This document shows, one piece after another, positions 12,592 to 33,598 of a DNA stretch of 34,359 nt. Both the position numbers and the translations under genes were made by a program. Within the stretch, counting starts at the first letter, position 1. Each line of letters opens with the position of its first letter. The notes below the pieces were generated by a model. It saw nothing but the letters and a program-made list of their open reading frames with translations. It was not told the origin of the DNA and searched no databases. This DNA comes from a virus, in IMG/VR virus record IMGVR_UViG_3300036945_001039, positions 1-34,359 of that record; one strand, written 5' to 3'.

Positions 12592-12888
12592 ATGGGTAAG
12601 TTAGATCCTTATCAATCCCAAAAAGCAAGTAGAGATAAATCTATTGCTAGAAATAAACTTTATGTTAGGGAATATTTAGAAGGAAAATCATGTGTAGATT
12701 GTGGTAATTCTGATATAAGAGTATTAGAATTTGATCACGTAAGAGGAAAGAAGTTATATCACGTATCTTACATGGTACAAAAAGCATATAAACTTGATCT
12801 TATAAAAGAAGAATTAAGTAAATGTGAAATACGATGTTGTAATTGTCATAGAATCGTTACACATGAAAGAAGAAGTAATTTTAAATAA
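12592..12888 (+). CDS. HNH endonuclease, 98 aa (free-standing, mobile)
   Basis: Small HNH nuclease: CVDC (34-37), then VLEFDHVRGKK with D48/H49 as the catalytic DH, and CCNCHRIVTHER (82-93) providing the second Cys pair and the final His. This is the zinc-stabilised beta-beta-alpha-metal fold of phage homing endonucleases. The basic N-terminus (KASRDKSIARNK) likely contacts DNA. It is inserted between the capsid gene and the next structural gene, and its leader copies that of the scaffold gene (AACTACATTATGG). Its AT-rich codon use contrasts with the capsid gene. It probably cuts alleles lacking the insert; it is not needed for virion assembly. Confidence 0.88.
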   Translation: MGKLDPYQSQKASRDKSIARNKLYVREYLEGKSCVDCGNSDIRVLEFDHVRGKKLYHVSYMVQKAYKLDLIKEELSKCEIRCCNCHRIVTHERRSNFK

Positions 12889-16862: not shown

Positions 16863-18023
16863 ATGTCTTGTACAAATTGCTTTAATGGATGTACTGAAAC
16901 TATTTCAGATCAATGTGTCAGATACACAGGAGAAGATATTCCTGCATTAGGTATTAGTCATGGTGATAATCTTTTAGCTGTAGAGAATGCAATTACAACA
17001 TTCCTTGTTCCTGTATTGACAGGAGTGGGAATTAAACCTATTGTTAACGAGAGCGTTATTTGTGATGTAGTTAAACAGTTTCTTCCAACATGTACACAGT
17101 GTACAGGATTTACATTAAACGAAGTTTTAACAGCAATTATTAAAGCAGCATGTTTATTACAAGAACAAATAGATGATCTTGTTGCAGAATTTGAAACTTT
17201 AAATGCTAACTATGATGTAGCATGTCTTGATAATGTAACAGCATCGTCTGGTACACATGATATTCTTCAAGCTGCAATTGATAAAATTTGTGAGCTAGAA
17301 GTTAATCTTGGAGCAGTAATTCTTGACCTTGCTACAAACTACTATACTAAAACACAAGTTATTGCACTTATTGAGAACTATGTTCCACCTGGTGGAAATT
17401 TAGTTAAAAATAAAATGATACCTTATGTAGCCCTCCCATACTTCTCTACAGACTTATCAATGTTTGATGTTAGTGGTGCAGGTATAGGTGATTGGATTGA
17501 TATTTATTTATGTAATGGAACTAGTCATCCACAAGCACCAGATATACGAGGAAGAGCTATTGTTGGAGTTACTACAGGTGTTCAAGGAGGACCAATGAAT
17601 CCATCTGTTAATCCAGGAGGATTTAATCCATCCTACACGCTAGGATCTACATTTGGAGAAAATGGAGTTGCTATAACAGACATTAATCAAATTCCAAGTC
17701 ATACACATACAGCTTCAGCTGTTACAACTATATTAGATACTCACAAACATAATTTTTCTGATTCTAAAGAGCAAGGTAGTGGTTTGATGCGAACAAGTGC
17801 TGGAATAGCACTCAATGGATCTCCATCTATATCCCCTAGTCAAGATTTTACTTCTGGTGCAGGAAGTGGGTTAGGTGTAATTCGATACACTTCTACAACA
17901 AGTGCAGGTGCTATTACAGGTACAACTACAGTTACAGTTGATCCTACTGGTGGTCTCACTCCTCAAGCTCACTCAAATACACAGCCTGTTATTGCTGCTA
18001 ATTATATAATCTACATACCTTAA
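16863..18023 (+). CDS. Tail fibre/collar-domain protein A, 386 aa
   Basis: Modular protein. Residues 1-110 are a Cys-rich N-terminal module (MSCTNCFNGC, SDQCVRYTGEDIPALGI, CDVVKQFLPTCTQCTGF); residues ~110-175 are helical with a repeat of the module logic. Residues ~185-386 are a phage tail-collar/microcystin-dependent-protein-like domain: DWIDIYLCNGT, APDIRGRAIVG, SHTHTASA, a Gly/Ser/Thr-rich loop region and the terminal HSNTQPVIAANYIIYIP. Collar domains commonly sit at fibre tips in receptor recognition. It is followed by a clear paralogue (18034-19155). The N-terminal module is shared with two further proteins and probably docks the fibre on the virion. Confidence 0.82.
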   Translation: MSCTNCFNGCTETISDQCVRYTGEDIPALGISHGDNLLAVENAITTFLVPVLTGVGIKPIVNESVICDVVKQFLPTCTQCTGFTLNEVLTAIIKAACLLQEQIDDLVAEFETLNANYDVACLDNVTASSGTHDILQAAIDKICELEVNLGAVILDLATNYYTKTQVIALIENYVPPGGNLVKNKMIPYVALPYFSTDLSMFDVSGAGIGDWIDIYLCNGTSHPQAPDIRGRAIVGVTTGVQGGPMNPSVNPGGFNPSYTLGSTFGENGVAITDINQIPSHTHTASAVTTILDTHKHNFSDSKEQGSGLMRTSAGIALNGSPSISPSQDFTSGAGSGLGVIRYTSTTSAGAITGTTTVTVDPTGGLTPQAHSNTQPVIAANYIIYIP

Positions 18024-18033
18024 TTTTATTAAT

Positions 18034-19155
18034 ATGTCTTGCACAAATTGTTATAATGGTTGCGCTGAGATTGTTTCTGATCAATGCGTTAGATATACAG
18101 GGGTAGATATACCTCTATTAGGCATTCAAAATGGTGACACTCTTCTTACTGTTGAGAATGCAATAATTTCATTTGTTACACCTTTCCTTAATGGATCAGG
18201 TATAAAACCCACTATTGATTTAGATATAATATGTGATGTAGTTAGACAATATATTCCTACATGTGTAGAATGTAATGGTTTTAATTTAAACGATGTATTA
18301 TCAGCAATCATTAAAGCTGTATGTGATTTACAAATTCAAATCAATAATATTGTTGCAGACATTGCAGTAATTGAAGCTGATTATGAAGTTGATTGTATAG
18401 AGGGAGTTACTGCTAACGCTGGAACACATGATGTGTTACAAGCTGTTATAACTACACTTTGTGAAGTACAATCTGACCTTGCAGCACTATCATTAGATCT
18501 TTCTACAAATTATGTTAGAATTGATCAGATTAACGATTACATTGCTGCATATCTAGCATCCACTCAACCAACTGATTTAATAAGAAACAGAATGGTTCCA
18601 TTTTCTGCATTAGAATTCTATGGTGACTTAATTGGTAAGTTTGATGCTACAGGTAAAGGTTTTGGAACCTGGGTAGATATCTATCTATGTAATGGAAACA
18701 ATGGCACTCCTGATAAACGAGGTAGAGTTGCTGTTTGTGCAATAGCAGATATGGGTGGTGGAGATTTGGATATAGAAGTAGATCCTAATGAAAGTGTATT
18801 CAATCCTAATTATGTAATAGATGATAATAGCCATGGTGTTAATTTTACAACTCTTAATATAGGTCAAATTCCTGATCATACACACTTTGCTACTGTAACA
18901 ATAAATGATCCTGGGCATATTCATAATATTAATGTTGGATATACAGGATCTTCAAGTATTAAAATGGTAAATGGAGAGATTGATAATAATGCTTTAGTAG
19001 GAACAAAGCCTACTTTGTCTGCAAATACAGGTTTAAAAGGGACAGGAGTAGGTCAAAATGTTTTTGTATTAAATTCAAATATAGGTGGTAATCAAGCTCA
19101 TTCAAACCTACAACCTGTATATCCTTGTTATTATATAATTTATATACCTTCTTAA
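18034..19155 (+). CDS. Tail fibre/collar-domain protein B, 373 aa (paralogue of A)
   Basis: Tandem paralogue of the preceding gene. The N-terminus (MSCTNCYNGCAEIVSDQCVR, then YTGVDIPLLGI) and central helical region align almost throughout. The C-terminal collar domain has WVDIYLCNG, PDKRGRVAVC, PDHTHFATV and HSNLQPVYPCYYIIYIPS but differs in the loop regions where ligand contacts are expected. Gene duplication followed by divergence of the tip is the simplest explanation. It is separated from A by 10 bases. Two fibre types or a heteromeric fibre are possible. Confidence 0.82.
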   Translation: MSCTNCYNGCAEIVSDQCVRYTGVDIPLLGIQNGDTLLTVENAIISFVTPFLNGSGIKPTIDLDIICDVVRQYIPTCVECNGFNLNDVLSAIIKAVCDLQIQINNIVADIAVIEADYEVDCIEGVTANAGTHDVLQAVITTLCEVQSDLAALSLDLSTNYVRIDQINDYIAAYLASTQPTDLIRNRMVPFSALEFYGDLIGKFDATGKGFGTWVDIYLCNGNNGTPDKRGRVAVCAIADMGGGDLDIEVDPNESVFNPNYVIDDNSHGVNFTTLNIGQIPDHTHFATVTINDPGHIHNINVGYTGSSSIKMVNGEIDNNALVGTKPTLSANTGLKGTGVGQNVFVLNSNIGGNQAHSNLQPVYPCYYIIYIPS

Positions 19156-20299: not shown

Positions 20300-21295
20300 A
20301 TGAGCATTCTTAATTGTATAAACACTGACTCTTGTTCAACACAAATTACTAAATCTGATTTAGTAACATATATTGGGCTAGATTTATTGTGTACAAATAT
20401 TCAAACATCAGAAGATCTCACTGTAGCTCTTGCAAAAATAGAAGAAAATATTTGTAGTATAACAGATACTTTAACTGTCTGTTGTCCTACAACTACTACA
20501 ACCAGTAGTTCTACCACAACAACTACAACTACAGAATGTCCTTGTCCAACCACAACAACAACTACTAGTTCTAGTAGCACAACTACTACAACTAGTTCTA
20601 CTAGTACAACTACTAGTACAAGTACATCAACCACTACAACAACATCAACAACATCAACATCATCAACTACAACTACATCAACTAGTACAACTTCTACAAC
20701 CACTACAATATATGTTCCAACAGTGAATATTTGTGATATTGAAGTTGCAACTAAAAACTTAAATGTATCAAGATACAGAAATGGTGATGCGATTCCTCAA
20801 GTAACAGACCCTGCAGCATGGGCAGCATTGACCACTGGAGCTTGGTGCTACTATAATAATGATTCAAGTAATCAATTAGTTTATGGAAAACTTTACAACT
20901 GGTATGCTGTGAATGACCCTAGAGGATTAGCTCCATTAGGTTATCATGTTATGACACACGCAGAAAGACTTGCTATTCAAGCATGTCTTGGAGGATCAGG
21001 AGTTGCAGGAGGAAAAATGAAAGAAATTGGAACTTCGCATTGGGCTGCACCAAATACATCAGCTACTAATTCAAGTGGTTTTACAGCATTACCTGGAGGT
21101 ATCAGACGTGCAGGAGCACCTCTTGTTACATCAGCTCCATTTCAAGAATTTACATTATCTGGATATTTCTGGACAGCTACTCCAGAAACAATAACTTCAG
21201 CTTACTCTTTTATAGTTGTATACAATGCTAGTTTTGTAGGAGATCCTGGTAATACTCACAAGTATGGTATGTCTGTTCGAATAGTAAAAGATTAA
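20300..21295 (+). CDS. Modular adhesin: docking module, long Thr/Ser stalk, FISUMP domain, 331 aa
   Basis: Residues 1-62 are the docking module seen in its neighbours (VTYIGLDLLCTNI, DLTVALAKIEENICSITDTL, VCC). Residues 63-136 are almost pure Thr/Ser, broken once by ECPCP, a mucin-like stalk. Residues ~141-331 match the Fibrobacter succinogenes major paralogous domain (FISUMP) pattern: KLYNWYAVND, LGYHVMTHAERLAIQ, AGGKMKEIGTSHW, ATNSSGFTALPGGIRRAG, GYFWTATPE and KYGMSVRIVKD. FISUMP domains have a C-type-lectin-like fold and occur in surface proteins, including variable proteins of some diversity-generating retroelements. Likely a receptor- or glycan-binding virion protein. Confidence 0.8.
   Translation: MSILNCINTDSCSTQITKSDLVTYIGLDLLCTNIQTSEDLTVALAKIEENICSITDTLTVCCPTTTTTSSSTTTTTTTECPCPTTTTTTSSSSTTTTTSSTSTTTSTSTSTTTTTSTTSTSSTTTTSTSTTSTTTTIYVPTVNICDIEVATKNLNVSRYRNGDAIPQVTDPAAWAALTTGAWCYYNNDSSNQLVYGKLYNWYAVNDPRGLAPLGYHVMTHAERLAIQACLGGSGVAGGKMKEIGTSHWAAPNTSATNSSGFTALPGGIRRAGAPLVTSAPFQEFTLSGYFWTATPETITSAYSFIVVYNASFVGDPGNTHKYGMSVRIVKD
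20489..20707 (+). repeat. Long Thr/Ser codon repeat (mucin-like stalk)
   Basis: About 219 bases of ACA/ACT/ACC and AGT/TCA/TCT codons encoding residues 64-136. It is the longest such tract in the window. Its composition creates an open antisense frame rich in Val, which is an artefact. Confidence 0.85.
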
Positions 21296-21312: not shown

Positions 21313-22077
21313 ATGACAGTATTAATAACATTAACAATAGCAGGATCTGATGCAGGACCTTTTAATCTATATTCAGATGTAGATGGATTCACCTCAGCAT
21401 TTGAAACAGGTGTTGCCAAAATAGATTTATTAGCAGGATATTCTTCATCATTAGTTCCTGACCCAACAACAATTATCAGAGTGATGTCTATTAATCCATT
21501 GTGTACTAGTTACATTGATTTAGAATTATATCCAACAACTACAACTACAACTACCTATTTACCATTAGCGTTCTCAACTTCTTACAGTTGTATACCTGAA
21601 CCAAATATTTCAATATCTGCGTTCTCAATTACTGGTGGATCAGGATTATATTTTGCAGGAACAACTTACTTTTTAGATGAGCCTTCTGCATTAGCTAATT
21701 CAAGTTGGACATCACCTATATCTACTGTTACATATAATGTAGGGACTACAAATGGTAGTTTCTGGATTGTAATTATAGATTCAGTAGGAAACATACTTGC
21801 ACAGGAAGTAATCACTGCTTGTGTAATTACAACCACTACTACCACTACCACAGCACTTCCAAATTATGGAATAAAAAGATGTGGTGACCTTGCACCATTT
21901 GTTGTTGCAGCCACTTACCCATTTTCAATATACGATGTAATTCAATTTCAAATAGGAGTACCAGGATCTGGTCCTGTTTATTGTGGTGAAGTGGGTGGTA
22001 TTGTAGCAGGTGTACCAGATGCTGAGATTGTTTCTCCTACAGTATATTCTTGTGGAGATATAGTAAATTGTCCATAA
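21313..22077 (+). CDS. Modular virion protein with AG-GPF domain and two Thr linkers, 254 aa
   Basis: Residues 1-72 form a beta-rich module (VLITLTIAGSDAGPFNLYSD, KIDLLAGYSS) that recurs at the start of the 288-aa protein at 32197. A Thr linker (75-81) leads to a second beta domain (residues ~82-170, ISAFSITGGSGLYFAG, TTNGSFWIVIIDSVGN), then a second linker (173-180) leads to a C-terminal domain of about 70 residues (GIKRCGDLAPF, VYSCGDIVNCP). It is the last gene before a strong terminator. It is probably a decoration or adhesin subunit of the preceding fibre set. No enzyme motif is seen. Confidence 0.7.
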   Translation: MTVLITLTIAGSDAGPFNLYSDVDGFTSAFETGVAKIDLLAGYSSSLVPDPTTIIRVMSINPLCTSYIDLELYPTTTTTTTYLPLAFSTSYSCIPEPNISISAFSITGGSGLYFAGTTYFLDEPSALANSSWTSPISTVTYNVGTTNGSFWIVIIDSVGNILAQEVITACVITTTTTTTTALPNYGIKRCGDLAPFVVAATYPFSIYDVIQFQIGVPGSGPVYCGEVGGIVAGVPDAEIVSPTVYSCGDIVNCP

Positions 22078-24679: not shown

Positions 24680-25603
24680 ATGAGTTACTACTACAAATAT
24701 AATTTTGTTAGCCCAGAGCCAGTCTACGCACTTGTGAAAGAAGAGTTGAAATCTTACTTTGATACAGGAGCAGTAGATGATCTTTTATTTCCAACCTACT
24801 TGGAAAAGTGCCTTAAGAAGTTAGGACAATCAAGTTATGTAATAGCACAACAACTTCTATATATAGAAGATTTTGAAGCTAGACTTCCTGATAACTTCTA
24901 TGCTGTAAGAGAAGCTTGGTTGTGTACATCTATTCCTGGATATCCATATCAGACAGCTAACTCATTTTACTCACAGGCTGCCTCAGAAACAACAATACAA
25001 ATTAGTCCTGTTATTTCTAATGGTCAACCTTGTACTAACTTAGAATGTACCACAGGATGTCCTACGTGCATGCCTGAGCTAGTTCAAGCTGTATATAAAA
25101 CAAATCAACAAATTGCTGTTGAATATCACAGACAATATTTATTAAGACCAGGAAACATTTCTGTAAAAGCAAACTGTTCTTTAGACTGTGCTAACTTTGG
25201 TTCATCAGCTGCTGATTCATTTGACATTAGAGATAACAAGTTTGTTACCAACTTCAGACATGGAGTGGTACATTTAGTATTCTACTCTACAGAATATGAT
25301 AATATAGGAAATCAAATGATGCCTGACAACTATCGTATCAGAGAGTTTATAGAAGCATTCATTAAATATAAAGTGTTTGAAACACTTGCAAATCAAACTA
25401 ACGACGAAACCTTCAATCAACTCCAACAAAAACTTGTCTATTACAAACAACTTCATGATGAGGCTTTCATTATGGCAAACATTGAAATCAAGAAACAAAC
25501 TTCTTGGGAGAAACAAAGACGAGTTAGAAAAGACTTGAACAGATTTAATATGTACGAGTTACCAAATCGTAGTAATAGATATGGTTGGAGACGAAATAAT
25601 TAA
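24680..25603 (+). CDS. Probable tail hub/ring protein, 307 aa
   Basis: 307 residues. The N-terminus (YYYKYNFVSPEPVYALVKEEL) and the pattern IEDFEARLPDNFYAVREAWLC resemble conserved tail-ring proteins next to the muzzle gene in crAss-like phages. A Cys-rich insertion (CTNLECTTGCPTCMPE, residues ~117-130) could bind metal. The C-terminal region is helical (NYRIREFIEAFIKYKVFETL, QQKLVYYKQLHDEAF) and basic at the end (RRVRKDLNRFNMYELPNRS). It is likely a component of the tail barrel between connector and muzzle. Six bases separate it from the next ATG. Confidence 0.65.
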   Translation: MSYYYKYNFVSPEPVYALVKEELKSYFDTGAVDDLLFPTYLEKCLKKLGQSSYVIAQQLLYIEDFEARLPDNFYAVREAWLCTSIPGYPYQTANSFYSQAASETTIQISPVISNGQPCTNLECTTGCPTCMPELVQAVYKTNQQIAVEYHRQYLLRPGNISVKANCSLDCANFGSSAADSFDIRDNKFVTNFRHGVVHLVFYSTEYDNIGNQMMPDNYRIREFIEAFIKYKVFETLANQTNDETFNQLQQKLVYYKQLHDEAFIMANIEIKKQTSWEKQRRVRKDLNRFNMYELPNRSNRYGWRRNN

Positions 25604-25608
25604 TACCC

Positions 25609-28600
25609 ATGGCAGACGATAAACTTGACCAAATTAAGAAACTACTCGATGGTAATCAAAGTAATGTTAACCAGGAGTATAATGTAGCAGCTGTAGGAAT
25701 GAATTTCGATAACAGCGTTAACCAAGTTCCTAAAGGTATGCTCACTTATGCACTGAATGCATCAGTTGAGAACTTTGACTCTAACTCTGTAAACTATCAG
25801 AATGAGCCAGGAAATGAGTTTTGTGTTTCATTTCCTCCTGAGTTTGTATTAATTGGTAAACATTTTATTCAAGAGAAAAGTAAACATATATTCTTTCTTG
25901 CAAATCCTACAACAGGAGATTCGCAGATTGGATACATGGATAACAATGATTGTAAGTATAATGTATTCGTAAGTGCTAAGTGTCTTAATTTTAACGTAGC
26001 TTATCCTATTCATAAAGTTGTACACAAGATAACTAACTGTAGTACAGAGATATATTGGACAGATGGATTTAATCCTAGAAGATACTTAGATCTTGATCCT
26101 CTCAAGATTCCTTATAGCTTAGTACAAACTTCTACTTTTTGTAATCCTGATTACACAGATGAGATAGATTGTAATCAATTAAAATTACAACCTAACTTTT
26201 CTATTCCTGGATTATCTATTATTGATGTTGTAACAGGTGGAAGTCTCACTGCAGGTACAGTGCAGTTTGCAATTCAGTATTCTGATTCAGCAAGCAATCC
26301 TTACACATCATATTATTCAGTTACAAATCCTACACCTATTGCAGATCCAAGAATTACTACTCCTGACTTCAACTATCCTGTTGGAAAATCAGTTGTGATT
26401 CAAGTGGACAATCTTGATACTACAGGACAGTTCCAATATTTCAATCTAGCTGTAATTAAAACAGTGAATTCAATTGCATCTGTAGAACTAGTGGGCACAT
26501 ACTTTATTGAATCACCCACTATAAACATTACCTACACAGGACAAGATGTTACAGCAATACGTTTAGCTATCAATGATATCTTTGAAAAATATCCTTATTA
26601 TGACATTGCTCAAGACGTTACAGCTGTACAAGACGTTCTTGTATGGACCAGTCTTACATCTATAGATAGAATCAACTATCAATCTATTGCTAATGCAATC
26701 ACTTTAAATTGGCAATCATACAGACTTCCTGCTAATGAGAATTATGCAGATGAATTAAATGCAACTAACTTACGTGGGTATCTACGTGATGAGGTGTATG
26801 CATTTGAGATTGTGTTCTTATTGAAGAATGGAAAACAAACAGATGGATTCCATATTCCTGGTAGACCAGTGTTAGCCACTGACTTAACTAATGTTTACAA
26901 AACAGGTCCAGCTGCAACAGCTGATTTTATAGGTGTTCCTACTAATGTTGAAGATGTTACAGGTTATGAGTATAGTCCTTATTGGAAGATATATAATACA
27001 GCCACAGTAACTGGAGAGGGTGATGGATTACCTATTGGGAATGCCACACCTTATGAGCAAGGAAATTTTGCTTATTGGGAATCATCAGAAAAATATCCAT
27101 GCAATCCTGATTTATGGGGAGAACTTGCAAATCAACCTATCAGACATCATAAGTTTCCTGACGTACTTGTTAGTCCTGTATTTGAAAGTGCTACACCAAC
27201 TATCCTATCTAATGGTAAGTATGGAGTTGAAATGCAATCTAACGATGCTGTATTTCCTATTGGTGTAAATATAAACATCACTCAAATTACAAATTTAATC
27301 CAACGTTCTAATTTAACAGAAGATCAGAAAGCTGACATTGTTGGGTTTAAAATAGTTAGAGGAGACAGAGGAACAAACAAATCCATTGTAGCTAAGGGTA
27401 TTCTTAGAAATGTAGGAATGTATTCAAGAGAAGATCAAACCTACTACTACCCTAACTATCCATATAACGATCTTGATGAAGATCCATTCTTAAATGAAAT
27501 CAATAATGCTTACAGTAAAGTATCTGAAGCGTGGTTAATTATTTGTACAGAGGATGGTGAATATACATACATAGATCCAAATACAAATAAAGAAGTTACA
27601 AAACCAATGGTTGCAGGGGAGAATTATGAATTCTGTGCTATTGGAAAACCTAGACAAAAAGATTTAGGAGTTGGAAAAGCATTAATTGGTCCTGCAAATT
27701 ATAATGTGTGGTATGCTTCCAATGCAAATGCAAGAGGGTATGAAGCACAATGGAATGATCCTTTTACAGATAATAATACAGAATATAAATACACAACATC
27801 TTGGATTGCAGGAATTGGTGGTAGTGGTGCAACTGCTTTTTGTAGAATGGTTGTAGAAGATCTTGATGGACCTGGTAATAATTGTAATAATGAAACAACT
27901 TTTGAAGATCCATTCAATGGATTTATTAAATGTGGTCCTCGTAACACGCTTGAACCATATGATATAAATGATCCAAACTTATTACCTGGTGGAATATCTC
28001 CATTAGGATATATACCATTTCCAGATTTTGGAAATGGGTTTCAATTCTCAAGAAGATCATCATTAAATTGTAATATAGAAACTCCAATCAAACCAATAAA
28101 AACTCCTGCATCACAATACAGACATGTATTCAATTCTCCTGAGACATCTTTTGGACAACCTTTCTTAGGTAATGTTCTTAAGTTAGAGAACGTAATGTAT
28201 GGAGCAGGTATTGGACATTTTGTTCAAGTTAGTAAAAATGCCAAGTATAAACTTATATCTAAAGAAGCTCAGATAGATGCACTTAATAGTTCTACAGCAA
28301 TTGCAAGAATTACTAGCTTCAATGCCACTGCTTTGTTTACAGCATATCAGGCATACCTAACTATTTATATCAATGGTATAACAAGAAGAAACTATGCATA
28401 TTCTTTTAACTCCATAGCTAGCTATGACTACTTTGGAGATATAGAAAATAATCAACAGATTAAACAACGTCCTATTGATCTTACACAATATCTTATTCCT
28501 GGTGTTCAGTCTGTAGGAGATAATTACAACATCAACAACTATCAAAGAGAGTCTTCTGTATTTATAAAAACTACAGAAGATGTAGATCCATTATTGTTTC

Positions 28601-30660
28601 CATCTAATGTTCCTAGTATTAATCCAGGAGGAACTACTTCTGCAACAGCTTTAATAGTCGATGACTCAAGATTTACTATTAGTGAATCAGGTGCATGTGC
28701 AACTCCTGCAAGAGAACAAGACTTGTCAGTAGTTTCTTACTATGGATCAATTAAAAATATATTTGATAATCAATGGGGTCAGATATATTCATACCAGACA
28801 ATTGATACAGGTTTTCAAGAAACACTTCCATTCTCAGGAATATCAAGTGCAACTGTGTTTGGAGGAGATACATTTATTTCTAGATTTGCATTCAAAACAA
28901 AACTTCCATTCTTTATTGATAACAGAGTGGGAGCTCCTGATGATTCAGATATATTCTATGATGAGATTGGTAACATTGCCTATCCAAGATATTGGCACTC
29001 ATCACGTTCTATATTAGAAGATTATAGCGTTCCTGGAGAGTCAACTATTATGAAGAATTTAATTTCTTACAAAGCTACCAACTTTGACTGTCCTAATAAT
29101 CCAGCAGATATTGTTTCAGTGGATGGTGCAGGGGCTTCATTAAGAACTTACTATGATGGGTACTTCTATTTATTTGCATATGGAATTCCTAACTTTTATT
29201 GTGAGAGTTCATATAATACAGATTTACGTCAAGCAATTGATAATAGATCTGGTGACTTCTGGCCACACGTTAGTACAAGTATTCCTGACGATTGGGTACA
29301 AGAAAGTTTTGTGTCAATAGCATTTGATAATACATATAACTATAATACAACCTTCTCCAAACAGAATAAAGAGAATGTGTTCACACACTTACCTCCTGAT
29401 TGGACAGAACAATTGTGTTACACAAACTATCCATTCAGAGCTATATATTCAGATCCTCAAACTGTTGATGCTGATAATAGAGTGAATAACTGGTTATCAT
29501 ATTCTGCATTATCATATCATGACTTTCCTCAGAACTATGGAAACTTAATATCATTAGATGGTATTCAGAACAGAGCTATTCTAGCTAGATTTGAAAACAA
29601 GTCATTGTTGTATAACAACTTGTTGACTATCGATACAAGTAATCCTCAAGCTGCATACGTAGGTAATCCTAATATGTTTAGTGCTCCTCCAATTGATTAT
29701 GCTGAAACAGATCTTGGATATGCAGGAAGTCAGAACAAGTTCTTGTTGAAGATTCCTCAAGGACAAATTAGTGTAGATGCTAAACGTGGACAAGTGTTCT
29801 TAATTGGTGGAGATCAAGCACAAGACCTTTCTGCATTTGGTTCAGGTATGAACAGATTCTTTACAGACCATTTAGCATTTGAGGTTCTTAGATATTTCCC
29901 AGATGTAAATACAGATAATAACTTTACAGGAATTGGATTACATGGAGTGTATGATTCTAAATTTGATAGAGTTATTCTTACTAAGCTTGATTACATTCCT
30001 ATAGACAAAGATGTGAAATATGATGCTGATAAAAGAGAGTTCTATATAGAGACAGTTCAATATCTTCCAGAGCCTACTACTACAACAACTACAACAACTG
30101 AAAGTCCTTATAACTTTGATATTACATTTAACTGGAATGATATTGGTGTTACAGATGCTGCAAGTTTTGAAGCATTCTATGTAAATGGGCAGCAAGGAAA
30201 TATTTTTCCAAATCCAAGTTTTGTACTTAATAGCTTCTTAATGGAAGGTAATAGAATACAAGCTAATGTTTCAAATATTTTTGTTATTTCGCTTAATAAT
30301 GGTTATATAAATTCAGATGTATCAGTAGATGTTTTACCCAATAATTTAATTACTCTAGAACTTCTTTATTTTGATAATCTTACTGGAATTTTTATAGACC
30401 TTCCTCCAAATCTAGTTAATTTAATGATAATATATAGTCCTTTTATTACATCACTTCCTAATCTTCCTACAACGTTGATGGCAATAAATATAGCTGGATT
30501 AAACTTAACTCAACAAACTTTAGATGATTTGGTAGACATGTTTATATTAGGTAGTGTTCCTAAAAATTCTTGGCAGTCTGGTAATCAACAAACAACTGAT
30601 ATTCCTAGTCCATCTAAAATAGCATTATTGAATGCAAATGTTAATAGTGTTTATTATTAA
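25609..30660 (+). CDS. Giant muzzle/tail-stabilisation-type protein with LRR-like C-terminus, 1683 aa
   Basis: Largest gene of the window. Residues ~1-1490 are beta-rich; the start (AAVGMNFDNSVNQVPKGMLTYALN) and late blocks (VDAKRGQVFLIGG, ~1389-1401; GVYDSKFDRVILTKLDY, ~1446-1462) match my recollection of crAss-like muzzle/tail-stabilisation proteins capping the tail. Residues 1490-1497 are poly-Thr; ~1500-1683 are a separate domain with LPxxLxxL-type repeats (LPNNLITLELLYF, LPPNLVNLMI, LPTTLMAINI) resembling a leucine-rich repeat. Relatives usually continue with a SWT/SFH block; here that block opens the next gene, so the gene appears split. Likely roles are tail closure and host contact. 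Confidence 0.75.
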   Translation: MADDKLDQIKKLLDGNQSNVNQEYNVAAVGMNFDNSVNQVPKGMLTYALNASVENFDSNSVNYQNEPGNEFCVSFPPEFVLIGKHFIQEKSKHIFFLANPTTGDSQIGYMDNNDCKYNVFVSAKCLNFNVAYPIHKVVHKITNCSTEIYWTDGFNPRRYLDLDPLKIPYSLVQTSTFCNPDYTDEIDCNQLKLQPNFSIPGLSIIDVVTGGSLTAGTVQFAIQYSDSASNPYTSYYSVTNPTPIADPRITTPDFNYPVGKSVVIQVDNLDTTGQFQYFNLAVIKTVNSIASVELVGTYFIESPTINITYTGQDVTAIRLAINDIFEKYPYYDIAQDVTAVQDVLVWTSLTSIDRINYQSIANAITLNWQSYRLPANENYADELNATNLRGYLRDEVYAFEIVFLLKNGKQTDGFHIPGRPVLATDLTNVYKTGPAATADFIGVPTNVEDVTGYEYSPYWKIYNTATVTGEGDGLPIGNATPYEQGNFAYWESSEKYPCNPDLWGELANQPIRHHKFPDVLVSPVFESATPTILSNGKYGVEMQSNDAVFPIGVNINITQITNLIQRSNLTEDQKADIVGFKIVRGDRGTNKSIVAKGILRNVGMYSREDQTYYYPNYPYNDLDEDPFLNEINNAYSKVSEAWLIICTEDGEYTYIDPNTNKEVTKPMVAGENYEFCAIGKPRQKDLGVGKALIGPANYNVWYASNANARGYEAQWNDPFTDNNTEYKYTTSWIAGIGGSGATAFCRMVVEDLDGPGNNCNNETTFEDPFNGFIKCGPRNTLEPYDINDPNLLPGGISPLGYIPFPDFGNGFQFSRRSSLNCNIETPIKPIKTPASQYRHVFNSPETSFGQPFLGNVLKLENVMYGAGIGHFVQVSKNAKYKLISKEAQIDALNSSTAIARITSFNATALFTAYQAYLTIYINGITRRNYAYSFNSIASYDYFGDIENNQQIKQRPIDLTQYLIPGVQSVGDNYNINNYQRESSVFIKTTEDVDPLLFPSNVPSINPGGTTSATALIVDDSRFTISESGACATPAREQDLSVVSYYGSIKNIFDNQWGQIYSYQTIDTGFQETLPFSGISSATVFGGDTFISRFAFKTKLPFFIDNRVGAPDDSDIFYDEIGNIAYPRYWHSSRSILEDYSVPGESTIMKNLISYKATNFDCPNNPADIVSVDGAGASLRTYYDGYFYLFAYGIPNFYCESSYNTDLRQAIDNRSGDFWPHVSTSIPDDWVQESFVSIAFDNTYNYNTTFSKQNKENVFTHLPPDWTEQLCYTNYPFRAIYSDPQTVDADNRVNNWLSYSALSYHDFPQNYGNLISLDGIQNRAILARFENKSLLYNNLLTIDTSNPQAAYVGNPNMFSAPPIDYAETDLGYAGSQNKFLLKIPQGQISVDAKRGQVFLIGGDQAQDLSAFGSGMNRFFTDHLAFEVLRYFPDVNTDNNFTGIGLHGVYDSKFDRVILTKLDYIPIDKDVKYDADKREFYIETVQYLPEPTTTTTTTTESPYNFDITFNWNDIGVTDAASFEAFYVNGQQGNIFPNPSFVLNSFLMEGNRIQANVSNIFVISLNNGYINSDVSVDVLPNNLITLELLYFDNLTGIFIDLPPNLVNLMIIYSPFITSLPNLPTTLMAINIAGLNLTQQTLDDLVDMFILGSVPKNSWQSGNQQTTDIPSPSKIALLNANVNSVYY
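30076..30099 (+). repeat. Poly-Thr linker inside the muzzle-like gene
   Basis: Eight consecutive ACT/ACA codons (residues 1490-1497) mark the boundary between the conserved body and the LRR-like addition. Confidence 0.8.
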
Positions 30661-30686
30661 TAGAATTAAAATGTATAGTTCACATT

Positions 30687-32192
30687 ATGTCAACAGAGAA
30701 TAATCAAATACCAGTAGTAACAAGAACACAGGTCTATCTTACAGATCCTGAATTTTTCTGTAGTAAATCTTGGACTCTTTCATTTAATATGAACACTAAG
30801 AGTTGGGTTTCATTTCACAGTTATATTCCTAATTGGTATATGGGTGAGAATAACTTCTTCTATTCAGGAATCAATGGTTGTTGTGATGACTTTGATTCTA
30901 GCTTTGCTGCATTTGTAGGAAATACAAATAAACCAACTACTAGTACAACCACTACAAATCCAGGAAGACCAACAGGAACAACTACTACTAGATATGTACC
31001 AAGTTGTATGTTAGAAGGATCAGTTGCAGAATTATTCTGTGAATTGGAAGGAGAAGTTCAGATTACAGTTCCAGCTACCACTACAACAACTATTTGTAGC
31101 AGACCTTCAGGACTAATAGGATTCCAATTAGTTACAGGATATGATGATGGAATAAATCCACCTGTAGTTTCTACAGGAAGTTTATTCGATGCTTGTACTG
31201 CAATAGACCTTTATTACATAACAACTCCAACAACAACATTTGGTTACACATATAGTTTAGAAGTTGGACAGTTTGTATATGATGACGATGGAACATTGTG
31301 TACTTATGTTCCAACTGGTTATTATTTTACAGAAGAAAGTGCATCAGGAAAATATGCATACTACATAGAAGATGGACGTATCATGAGCATTGATTATTGT
31401 AACTGTGGAACTACAACCACTACAACAACTAGTGTTCCTAATATTCCTGAATGTTGTGGAATATTATTTGCTTCAGGAGATAATGTATATTACACTTTAC
31501 CAAATTCTATTACGATGGGTCAGTTATCTATTCCTGGATATGTTACTTCTTTAGGAGTGGCTATGACAGCTAATAAGTTTTGGTCAATTGATTCAACTAT
31601 TGAAGAATGGGATATTGACTTATCTCCATTCAGTGCAACGTATAACAGATCGATTGCTTTTCCTGCAGGATTTACAACATCAGCAGGAATAACTGGAAAA
31701 GATGATTTAACATTAATAGCAATTAATGATACACCTTCTCCACAAGAAATTGTTGAATTAGATGTAACAGGATTAACAGCTGTAGAAACTTCTATAATTA
31801 CATTACAAACAGATAGAATTGGAGTTGGAAATACTTTATATACAACCAGTGGTAAAATAGTAGTAATCAATTACGATAGTGTAACAAATGATTATTACTT
31901 AACTCAATACGATTATGGAACAGCAGCAATAGAGTTAGATTTAAACATTGGAACAATTGCTCCTACATCAATTTATCAATGTAATTGTTACATTTACATA
32001 AGTGAAGCAAATGGTGATAGTTATTTAGTAACGTCATCTGCAGTTTATTCATTTGTAAATTTAAATATTTCAGTAGATGCAGTGGCTCAGTTATCAAGTT
32101 GTGTTGTAAGTTCTTTGACTGACAATCCTAATTTGACAACAACTACGTCAACATCATCATCTACAACTACGACAACAACAACTATTCCTTAA
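30687..32192 (+). CDS. Modular tail protein carrying the displaced muzzle C-terminal block, 501 aa
   Basis: Residues ~15-65 (VYLTDPEFFCSKSWTLSF, KSWVSFHSYIPNWY, FFYSGINGC) resemble the block that normally ends crAss-like muzzle proteins. Thr linkers at 84-90, 98-101, 131-135 and 242-248 separate small Cys-containing domains. Residues ~255-475 form a long beta-rich domain with propeller-like repetition (GILFASGDNVYY, VAMTANKFWSID, LTLIAINDTP, GKIVVINYD, CYIYISEANGDSYL). Residues 484-499 are a Thr/Ser tail ending the protein with IP. It is likely a tail-tip or adhesin subunit binding next to the muzzle. Domain names are by pattern only. Confidence 0.68.
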   Translation: MSTENNQIPVVTRTQVYLTDPEFFCSKSWTLSFNMNTKSWVSFHSYIPNWYMGENNFFYSGINGCCDDFDSSFAAFVGNTNKPTTSTTTTNPGRPTGTTTTRYVPSCMLEGSVAELFCELEGEVQITVPATTTTTICSRPSGLIGFQLVTGYDDGINPPVVSTGSLFDACTAIDLYYITTPTTTFGYTYSLEVGQFVYDDDGTLCTYVPTGYYFTEESASGKYAYYIEDGRIMSIDYCNCGTTTTTTTSVPNIPECCGILFASGDNVYYTLPNSITMGQLSIPGYVTSLGVAMTANKFWSIDSTIEEWDIDLSPFSATYNRSIAFPAGFTTSAGITGKDDLTLIAINDTPSPQEIVELDVTGLTAVETSIITLQTDRIGVGNTLYTTSGKIVVINYDSVTNDYYLTQYDYGTAAIELDLNIGTIAPTSIYQCNCYIYISEANGDSYLVTSSAVYSFVNLNISVDAVAQLSSCVVSSLTDNPNLTTTTSTSSSTTTTTTTIP

Positions 32193-32196
32193 TGCT

Positions 32197-33063
32197 ATGC
32201 CAAAGATTATAACAATACGATTAACAACAGCTGGAGCAAAGACTGGACCATTCACGATCACAGATCAGTTTGGTAACATCATAGCTACTAATGTTTCTAA
32301 GAAAACATTAATTGCAGGGATTAGTTATGAGGTTGATAATGTAGTTGATATAATAACAATTGAATCTACAGGAGAATGTAAATTAAAAAAATCATTCACT
32401 TTGACATCAATTACTAGAGCTGACTATGCAGCATTAACTTATACACAATCTACAAGTGCATGTTTGTGGAGACATCTTACAGATGTAACTACATACAACT
32501 GCTACTATGGAAATATAGAACCATACATTATTGAGTATCCTTTTGCATACCAATACCAAGATGAAATCTTACAGAATGTAAAAGACTACACTAAAGCATA
32601 TCAATACCTTCCTATTCCTAATGGTGTATTTGATGACAATGCTAAATTTGAAACAAACGATAAATGGTTCAACAAAGCTATTCTATATAATGGACAACAA
32701 AGTTCAGGAGTATTAGAGCTTGTTGCAAAACCAATGAACAACTTGCAGGCATACAACTTATATCCTATCTTTAACGCTGATAGCAAAACTATCACATATA
32801 CCAAGAGTGATAACTTCTACCAGTATAATACATTCTGGGCATTGCAAAAAAGTTCTCAGATTCCATTGTTTAATGTTTCTTGTGAAAGCCTTTCAATTGA
32901 TAAGGTGATTAATCAATCTAATATGGACTATGGATCTAGATCATTTAAGAAAGCTCCCCTTAGAGCCAAGGAACTCAAAGTGAGACACATCTTAGATAAT
33001 AGCTGCACAGTACACTTAGTTAGTCAATTCATAATAACACCTGCAATGATAAGCTATAAATAA
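32197..33063 (+). CDS. Virion protein sharing the AG-GPF N-terminal module, 288 aa
   Basis: Residues ~1-70 (IITIRLTTAGAKTGPFTI, VSKKTLIAGISYEV, IESTGECKLKKSF) match the start of the 254-aa protein at 21313 in pattern. The remaining ~215 residues are beta-rich and aromatic (YGNIEPYIIEYPFAYQYQD, NKAILYNGQQSSGVLEL, YTKSDNFYQYNTFWALQK), with a basic stretch near the end (SRSFKKAPLRAKELKVRH). No known catalytic motif is visible. It starts 4 bases after a gene that ends in a poly-Thr tail, so it may be a former C-terminal module now separate. A late tail component is likely. Confidence 0.68.
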   Translation: MPKIITIRLTTAGAKTGPFTITDQFGNIIATNVSKKTLIAGISYEVDNVVDIITIESTGECKLKKSFTLTSITRADYAALTYTQSTSACLWRHLTDVTTYNCYYGNIEPYIIEYPFAYQYQDEILQNVKDYTKAYQYLPIPNGVFDDNAKFETNDKWFNKAILYNGQQSSGVLELVAKPMNNLQAYNLYPIFNADSKTITYTKSDNFYQYNTFWALQKSSQIPLFNVSCESLSIDKVINQSNMDYGSRSFKKAPLRAKELKVRHILDNSCTVHLVSQFIITPAMISYK

Positions 33064-33070
33064 AATAGTT

Positions 33071-33598
33071 ATGGAAATTTGGAAACCAATACCTAGTTTA
33101 AATAATTTATATGAAGCAAGTAATCTTGGTAAGATTAGATCTGCAGGTATTAGAAATAAAGGTAAAATATTAAGAGAATATATTAATTCTCCTGAAAATA
33201 TTAATTACAATTTTGTAGAAGTCCATATAAATAATAAAAAATGGATGAAAAGAGTACATAGACTTGTAGCTGAAGCATTTTGTGAAAATCTTGAAAATTA
33301 TCCAATTGTAATGCATTTAGATAATGATAGAAGAAATAATAAAGCAAGTAATTTACAATGGGGTACATTAAAAATGAACTCTCAACAAATGATAATAGAG
33401 GGTAGAGGTAATAAATCTAAAGGTAGCAAACATTATCTTTCTAAATTAACTGAAGAGCAAGTAATTGAAATACGAGAAAAGTATATACCAAGAAAATATA
33501 CTTTGCAAAAATTAGCAAAAGAGTACAATGTAAGCTTTGGGTTAATTGGACATGTTATAAAGAATAGAAATTGGAAACACGTAATCTCTTACAAGTAA
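33071..33598 (+). CDS. NUMOD4-HNH homing endonuclease, 175 aa
   Basis: The N-terminal NUMOD4 pattern (EIWKPIPSLNNLYEASNLGK, 2-21; then IRSAG) is followed by the HNH core: VHRLVAEAF (62-70), IVMHLDNDRRNN (79-90, H82/D84) and ASNLQWGT (92-99). Residues ~122-168 form a helix-turn-helix DNA-binding tail (YTLQKLAKEYNVSFGLIGHV). Such free-standing enzymes cut intron- or insertion-free alleles and spread between phages. The gene is more AT-rich in codon use than neighbours and lies between two tail-module genes, a typical insertion site. The length is normal and all key residues look intact, so it is probably active. Confidence 0.92.
   Translation: MEIWKPIPSLNNLYEASNLGKIRSAGIRNKGKILREYINSPENINYNFVEVHINNKKWMKRVHRLVAEAFCENLENYPIVMHLDNDRRNNKASNLQWGTLKMNSQQMIIEGRGNKSKGSKHYLSKLTEEQVIEIREKYIPRKYTLQKLAKEYNVSFGLIGHVIKNRNWKHVISYK

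Follow-up and report, generated by a model that had tools for sequence, protein, structure and literature searches.

Three adjacent genes as probable fragments of one crAss-like phage muzzle, with a cassette site at the first break

What has happened to a conserved virion protein when its gene stops inside a structural unit and the missing part opens the next gene? This question is raised by the muzzle (the tail-tip gate) in the virus record IMGVR_UViG_3300036945_001039, a complete record of 34,359 bases, referred to below in its whole length as the window, which codes for structural proteins of a crAss-like phage. The genes starting at positions 25609, 30687, and 32197 (P0001, P0002, and P0003) are quite probably three fragments of one ancestral crAss-like muzzle, whose pieces co-fold and whose first break is a cassette site.

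The core gene, P0001 (25609–30660, plus strand, 1683 amino acids (aa), TAA stop), is homologous to the muzzles of 78 viral contigs and matches the “Muzzle protein” of csAssE-Sib (tblastn, E = 5e-52); the gene directly upstream (24680–25603) matches PF24228 CrAss_Ring_1 (E = 1.9e-9). The muzzle core proper (residues 1–1489, 25609–30075, plus strand; phrog_37948, E = 2.8e-105) ends just past the strand GVYDSKFDRVILTKLDY and the hairpin KYDADKREFYIE. In translation, the protein reads ...GIGLHGVYDSKFDRVILTKLDYIPIDKDVKYDADKREFYIETVQYLPEP-TTTTTTTT-ESPYNF... up to the TAA; its end is made of ...GVYDSKFDRVILTKLDYIPIDKDVKYDADKREFYIETVQYLPEP, a linker of eight threonines (Thr8, residues 1490–1497, 30076–30099, plus strand), and a C-terminal module of 186 aa (residues 1498–1683, 30100–30657, plus strand). 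The second gene, P0002 (30687–32192, plus strand, 501 aa, ATG start), begins MSTENNQIPVVTRTQVYLTDPEFFCSKSWTLSFNMNTKSWVSFHSYIPNW. Its new N-terminus, MSTENNQIPVVTRT (30687–30728, plus strand), conforms to the pattern M-x(4-6)-(I/V)PV(V/I)xRT, with which the split relatives start likewise; it is followed by the SWT/SFH block SWTLSFNMNTKSWVSFHSYIPNW (residues 15–65, 30729–30881, plus strand), and then by Thr-linked modules (30882–32189, plus strand) at the second break site. The third gene, P0003 (32197–33063, plus strand), holds the C-terminal part: an N-terminal domain of 86 aa, for which the name P3N was coined in this analysis (32197–32454, plus strand), precedes the last 200 residues of the muzzle (C-terminal block, residues 87–288, 32455–33060, plus strand).

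The PHROG profiles of intact muzzles cover P0001 to approximately residue 1475 (profile search), residues 15–65 of P0002 (phrog_37948 2051–2099, E = 3.5e-8, and phrog_15100 1547–1587), and residues 88–286 of P0003 (phrog_15100 1588–1781, E = 7e-10). Since these profiles run from the core to P0002 and further to P0003, the SWT block represents the following segment of one and the same protein, with the remainder in the third gene. The original prediction of a muzzle split inside one structural unit, with P0001 stopping after GVYDSKFDRVILTKLDY, the Thr linker, and a leucine-rich repeat (LRR) module, is borne out; so is its claim that the block opening P0002 directly continues the core, as it does in both intact and fused relatives. 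It had also proposed one domain assembled from two polypeptides; the broken unit stands, but the genes number three, not two, and the joint domain is a probable outcome rather than an observed one. Judging from the sequences, the window muzzle is a split variant of the crAss-like muzzle (gp44) family, in which the single polypeptide typical of the family is replaced by three open reading frames (ORFs) with TAA stops.

In alignments with intact crAss-like muzzles, a check put forward with the original prediction, the SWT block follows the VILTKLDY region. Neither of the two outcomes named there as refuting was observed. All three blocks are carried by a single ORF in Leptolyngbya phage Lbo-JY46 (SWT block 1408–1456, C-terminal block 1461–1652), csAssE-Sib (2010–2060 and from 2067), and Flavobacterium FpV4 (1725–1761 and from 1767), and the block corresponding to P0003 lies inside the intact muzzles of Lbo-JY46 and FpV4. 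Lbo-JY46 as a query gave no matches among the viral contigs; a profile of the intact C-termini recovered 12 single-ORF contigs (L166–L176 and L180), including L176, which is intact and approximately 50% identical to the window’s clade. The muzzles of Lbo-JY46, csAssE-Sib, and L176 share with the window the three homologous blocks in identical order but differ in the single ORF, the junction free of a Thr linker, and the absence of a detectable P3N domain. The structural proteins of Cellulophaga phi17:2 and FpV4 as well as contig L177 harbor, like the window, an extra domain in the loop between the core end and the SWT block (approximately 300 aa in the two phages and 491 aa in L177); unlike in the window, the insert is in line, and the gene stays one chain.

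The fold was assessed on the intact relative L176 and not on the window’s own chains. With a muzzle query, phmmer and hmmsearch retrieved no muzzle among the PDB sequences, so a fold search was used instead. The AlphaFold2 (AF2) model of the C-terminal 506 residues of L176 had its best PDB matches in the phicrAss001 muzzle (7qok_A, 7e-11; 7qol_P, 8e-11; Foldseek), followed by podovirus tail proteins including T7; the broken blade was modeled with pLDDT of approximately 80–95. Alignment of the relatives’ profile to crAss001 gp44 (hhalign, E = 5.7e-7) located the SWT and C-terminal blocks in one gp44 chain. The breaks fall between FYDKNNNDVYFTYKDH and CLCYSELINQFTSFMSY and between FYAFKDG and KMWEQF, both short turns; the parts after each break were placed by hhalign, and the unaligned strand before the first one was matched by eye. 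Both points lie after residue 1021, where IG2 ends; the part of gp44 beyond IG2 comprises the propeller and a ring-joining domain, following the description in PMC10172136. Hence, crAss001 gp44 (PDB 7QOK/7QOL; PMC10172136) is alike in its homologous C-terminal propeller region and identical block order, but it is one chain of 1371 aa with tight turns at the window’s break points. According to that paper, muzzle length varies through insertions into the crass and IG2 domains, whereas the window breaks map to the propeller part and yield separate genes.

It can be suggested from the above that the ancestral chain came apart at two loops connecting strands in the C-terminal portion of the beta-propeller, the first between the strands VILTKLDY and SWTLSFN and the second between NNFFYSGIN and LWRHLTD. 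Adjacent genes would each yield a chain of their own, and in the assembled tail tip these chains most likely fold together, so that a blade started by one is completed by another: SWTLSFN and SWVSFHSY would pair with GVYDSKFDRVILTK, and LWRH/CYYGN would complete the next blade. The broken ends would be free to bear additional material, at the first break a Thr linker and an exchangeable domain, here the LRR module, probably displayed on the tail tip and touching the host surface.

The two breaks seem to differ in age. The C-terminal piece with P3N is a separate gene in 141/141 loci (some of them overlapping on one contig), hence the second split is older and fixed. Among the 110 non-redundant muzzles of the window’s clade in the tree, the remaining rows of which are phage outgroups, the core and the SWT block are fused in 93 and split in 17; fusion prevails in the clade and is the state of the outgroups, which makes the first split a derived one. 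Fused muzzles of the clade (e.g., L070, L039, L045) have a similar core, a separate third piece, and often Thr-linked modules after the SWT block, but, unlike in the window, the core and the SWT block share one ORF. The split rows fall into three groups: the window with L084–L088, L089–L091, and L102/L104/L008–L057. A single clade of all split rows leaving L015 outside was rejected; with L015 inside, one origin was not. L015 is a fused phage within the third group, but a recombinant one: its first approximately 1350 residues are closest to those of L038 and relatives (63–91% along the protein), and L135/L145 are matched at 89–95% by the end of its core, the SWT block, and the C-terminal block. 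These three parts came jointly from another lineage, suggesting that the blocks travel as a unit; through recombination within the muzzle gene, at a point near residue 1350, a fused C-terminal unit was imported into a split lineage.

The muzzle gene of the distant L178, L179, and L181 is interrupted at the loop of the first break as well (a TAA followed by a new ATG), with the core and the SWT block again in separate adjacent genes. Unlike in the window, the SWT and C-terminal blocks are still joined there, and the tail modules are different; this split is apparently independent of the window’s. In L044 (9750–9991), the muzzle ORF is interrupted in the core, while the near-identical L043 is intact; probably, this is a sequencing or assembly frameshift and not the split described here.

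The content of the first break is remarkably variable in size among close relatives. A Thr-rich tail is present there in all split relatives of the clade, reduced to a short stub with no domain in L008, L034, L042, L084, and L086; in L084 and L086, the closest relatives of the window, the split is at the identical place with a 5-nucleotide (nt) gap, and in L008, L034, and L042 similarly with gaps of 11–13 nt. The “empty” relatives hold 27–36 bp in the break. L084 and L085 are 94.5% identical in the 3.7 kb that lead up to the Thr linker and 94.9% identical in the 2.75 kb that start with the second gene (blastn), but the break content is 36 nt in the former vs. 3,289 nt in the latter, which encode three modules and an entire 415-aa protein besides Thr linkers (gene at L085, 5737–6984; trypsin-like motifs NNHVT and GDSGSAL recognized by eye, no Pfam match). 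L034 differs from L013 (flanks 90/88% identical) by approximately 650 bp encoding a Fib_succ_major domain and from L057 by approximately 430 bp. Between L086 and the window (70–90% identical around the break), the difference is 27 bp vs. 591 bp, with the matches stopping at 30092 and restarting at 30684, which delimits the cassette to 30093–30683 (plus strand). The first break is therefore a slot for exchangeable parts differing among related phages; the near-identical flanks with differing content indicate that the LRR occupies a cassette site and probably did not cause the split. Homologous modules occur elsewhere in the window: the Fib_succ_major domain (2e-31) of the fibre-like gene at 20300 has homologues in the muzzle tails of L102, L104, L038, and L013 (1e-52 to 1e-48), and the gene at 21313 ends in a module matching the tail of L091 (1.9e-15). 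Thr-codon repeats are present in many window virion genes and might, as a guess, serve as a recombination substrate.

The break carries the Thr linker and the LRR module expected from the original prediction. The module contains three tandem LPxxLxxLxI-type units of 21–22 aa (residues 1576–1640, 30334–30528, plus strand), and all 14 PDB matches of the 75-aa repeat core are LRR proteins (phmmer; SspH1, 2.5e-5; YopM, 2.3e-3). The whole module has no Pfam match, and the AF2 model of its single sequence, made without an alignment to assess a solenoid fold, had a pLDDT of 34. Of the two surface modules thought to have been added at the break, the LRR does sit at the first one; the modules after the SWT block belong to the second and occur in fused relatives too. 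LRRs are general binding scaffolds. Fib_succ_major is found in variable, tropism-linked target proteins of diversity-generating retroelements (DGRs) in Bacteroides phages (PMC8143477, PMC4159848). Together with the muzzle’s place at the tail tip, this makes the exchangeable parts probably host-binding. The reading of the Fib_succ_major tails of the split relatives as DGR targets was rejected: no RVT_1 reverse transcriptase was found among 21 records covering both split and fused relatives (several 100–119 kb long, others fragments).

With about even chances, a broader scheme can be proposed, in which splitting inside a blade made a plug-in site out of an internal loop. The free ends would take exchangeable Thr-linked receptor-binding cassettes (LRR, lectin-like Fib_succ_major, other beta domains, a whole gene), so that the tail tip diversifies without touching the gate, and splitting would recur at the loop for the sake of such an end.

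A trivial origin of the break is practically negligible as an explanation. The window is a single metagenomic record, but approximately 20 further contigs from different samples, several of them above 100 kb, share the same break, which excludes chance or assembly error, the latter a possibility that the original prediction had asked to check; a decaying pseudogene is at odds with both ORFs being long, open, and constrained. It is also very unlikely that the two ORFs are joined at expression by a frameshift, stop readthrough, a recoded stop, an intron, or an intein. Recoded stops are known in crAss-like phages, including a TGA-recoded muzzle reported in PMC12386605, but the stop of P0001 is TAA, which ends window genes 26 times, and P0002 lies in another frame with its own ATG. 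Moreover, the gaps of 2–13 nt in L034, L042, L084, and L089 are too small for an intron, and a whole gene separates the halves in L085. Hence, separate polypeptides are made.

The second gene might be an independent tail or fibre protein retaining a piece of the muzzle, with the core closing without P0002. This is unlikely: the long Thr-linked modules of P0002 are typical of display proteins, but its SWT block keeps the motif, stays adjoining the core, and is under equal constraint whether split off or fused (pN/pS of 0.064 and 0.142 within split groups and 0.168 over all split rows vs. 0.149 and 0.088 in two fused groups). As L015 also acquired this block jointly with the core end and the C-terminal block, one propeller built by all the pieces is the simplest interpretation. 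Quite unlikely, too, is the order of events initially assumed, with the Thr–LRR insertion itself causing the split. Insertion before splitting is plausible in general, since fused relatives have material in line at the same loop (Thr linkers of approximately 30–45 aa in the L109–L134 group and a 108-aa Thr-flanked domain in L045 and L066); however, L084 and L086 are split there without any domain, and the modules at the site vary between otherwise closely similar phages. A homing endonuclease was rejected as the cause: among the loci examined, a gene of the HNH type found after P0003 lies close to the muzzle only in the window, in L006, and in the overlapping L113, and L006 is fused.

Several points weigh against three co-folding fragments with a host-binding cassette. 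The muzzle pieces are known here only from genes and from a single-chain prediction, and the whole L176 model was moderate (pLDDT 64, pTM 0.46). A single origin of the first split (p-AU 0.13) and several origins are equally possible. The host-binding role follows solely from module type and place, and the C-terminal module of P0001 (residues 1498–1683) has no relative in viral_contigs.

The neighborhood of the muzzle offers further observations. An HNH endonuclease with a NUMOD4 motif (33071–33598) lies directly 3' of P0003, and a second small HNH-like ORF was recognized by eye at 12592–12888. In the display-like product of 20300–21295, a Thr/Ser linker of 53 residues accompanies the Fib_succ_major domain. 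The product of 21313–22077 starts with a P3N domain as in P0003 (hidden Markov model, E = 1e-10), followed by two Thr-linked modules; many relatives also have P3N-like N-termini in genes lying approximately 3.6 kb upstream of their muzzle, and P3N is possibly a shared virion docking domain. The neighboring genes at 16863–18023 and 18034–19155 are paralogues that resemble each other at the N-terminus, and both have a tail-collar-like C-terminus (QAHSN.QP....YIIYIP). A cyanobacterial host is unusual for the crAss-like group, and the host label of L079 (PP438436, “Leptolyngbya phage Lbo-JY46”), which has a crAss-like muzzle, deserves a check.

In the passages covered from the open-access literature on crAss muzzle proteins, insertions are mentioned but no split muzzle, which is no proof of novelty; literature searches on fissioned phage tail genes and on Thr linkers likewise gave nothing relevant. 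The muzzle counts as a single conserved gene; with three genes in its place, its pieces will be overlooked or misnamed when environmental crAss-like phages are compared gene by gene. Should these pieces co-assemble, the tail gate would be made of blades shared among separate chains, and the break would be a natural site of module exchange at the tail tip. If this is true, host-range evolution in an abundant order of phages would become testable with near-identical phages differing only in the cassette.

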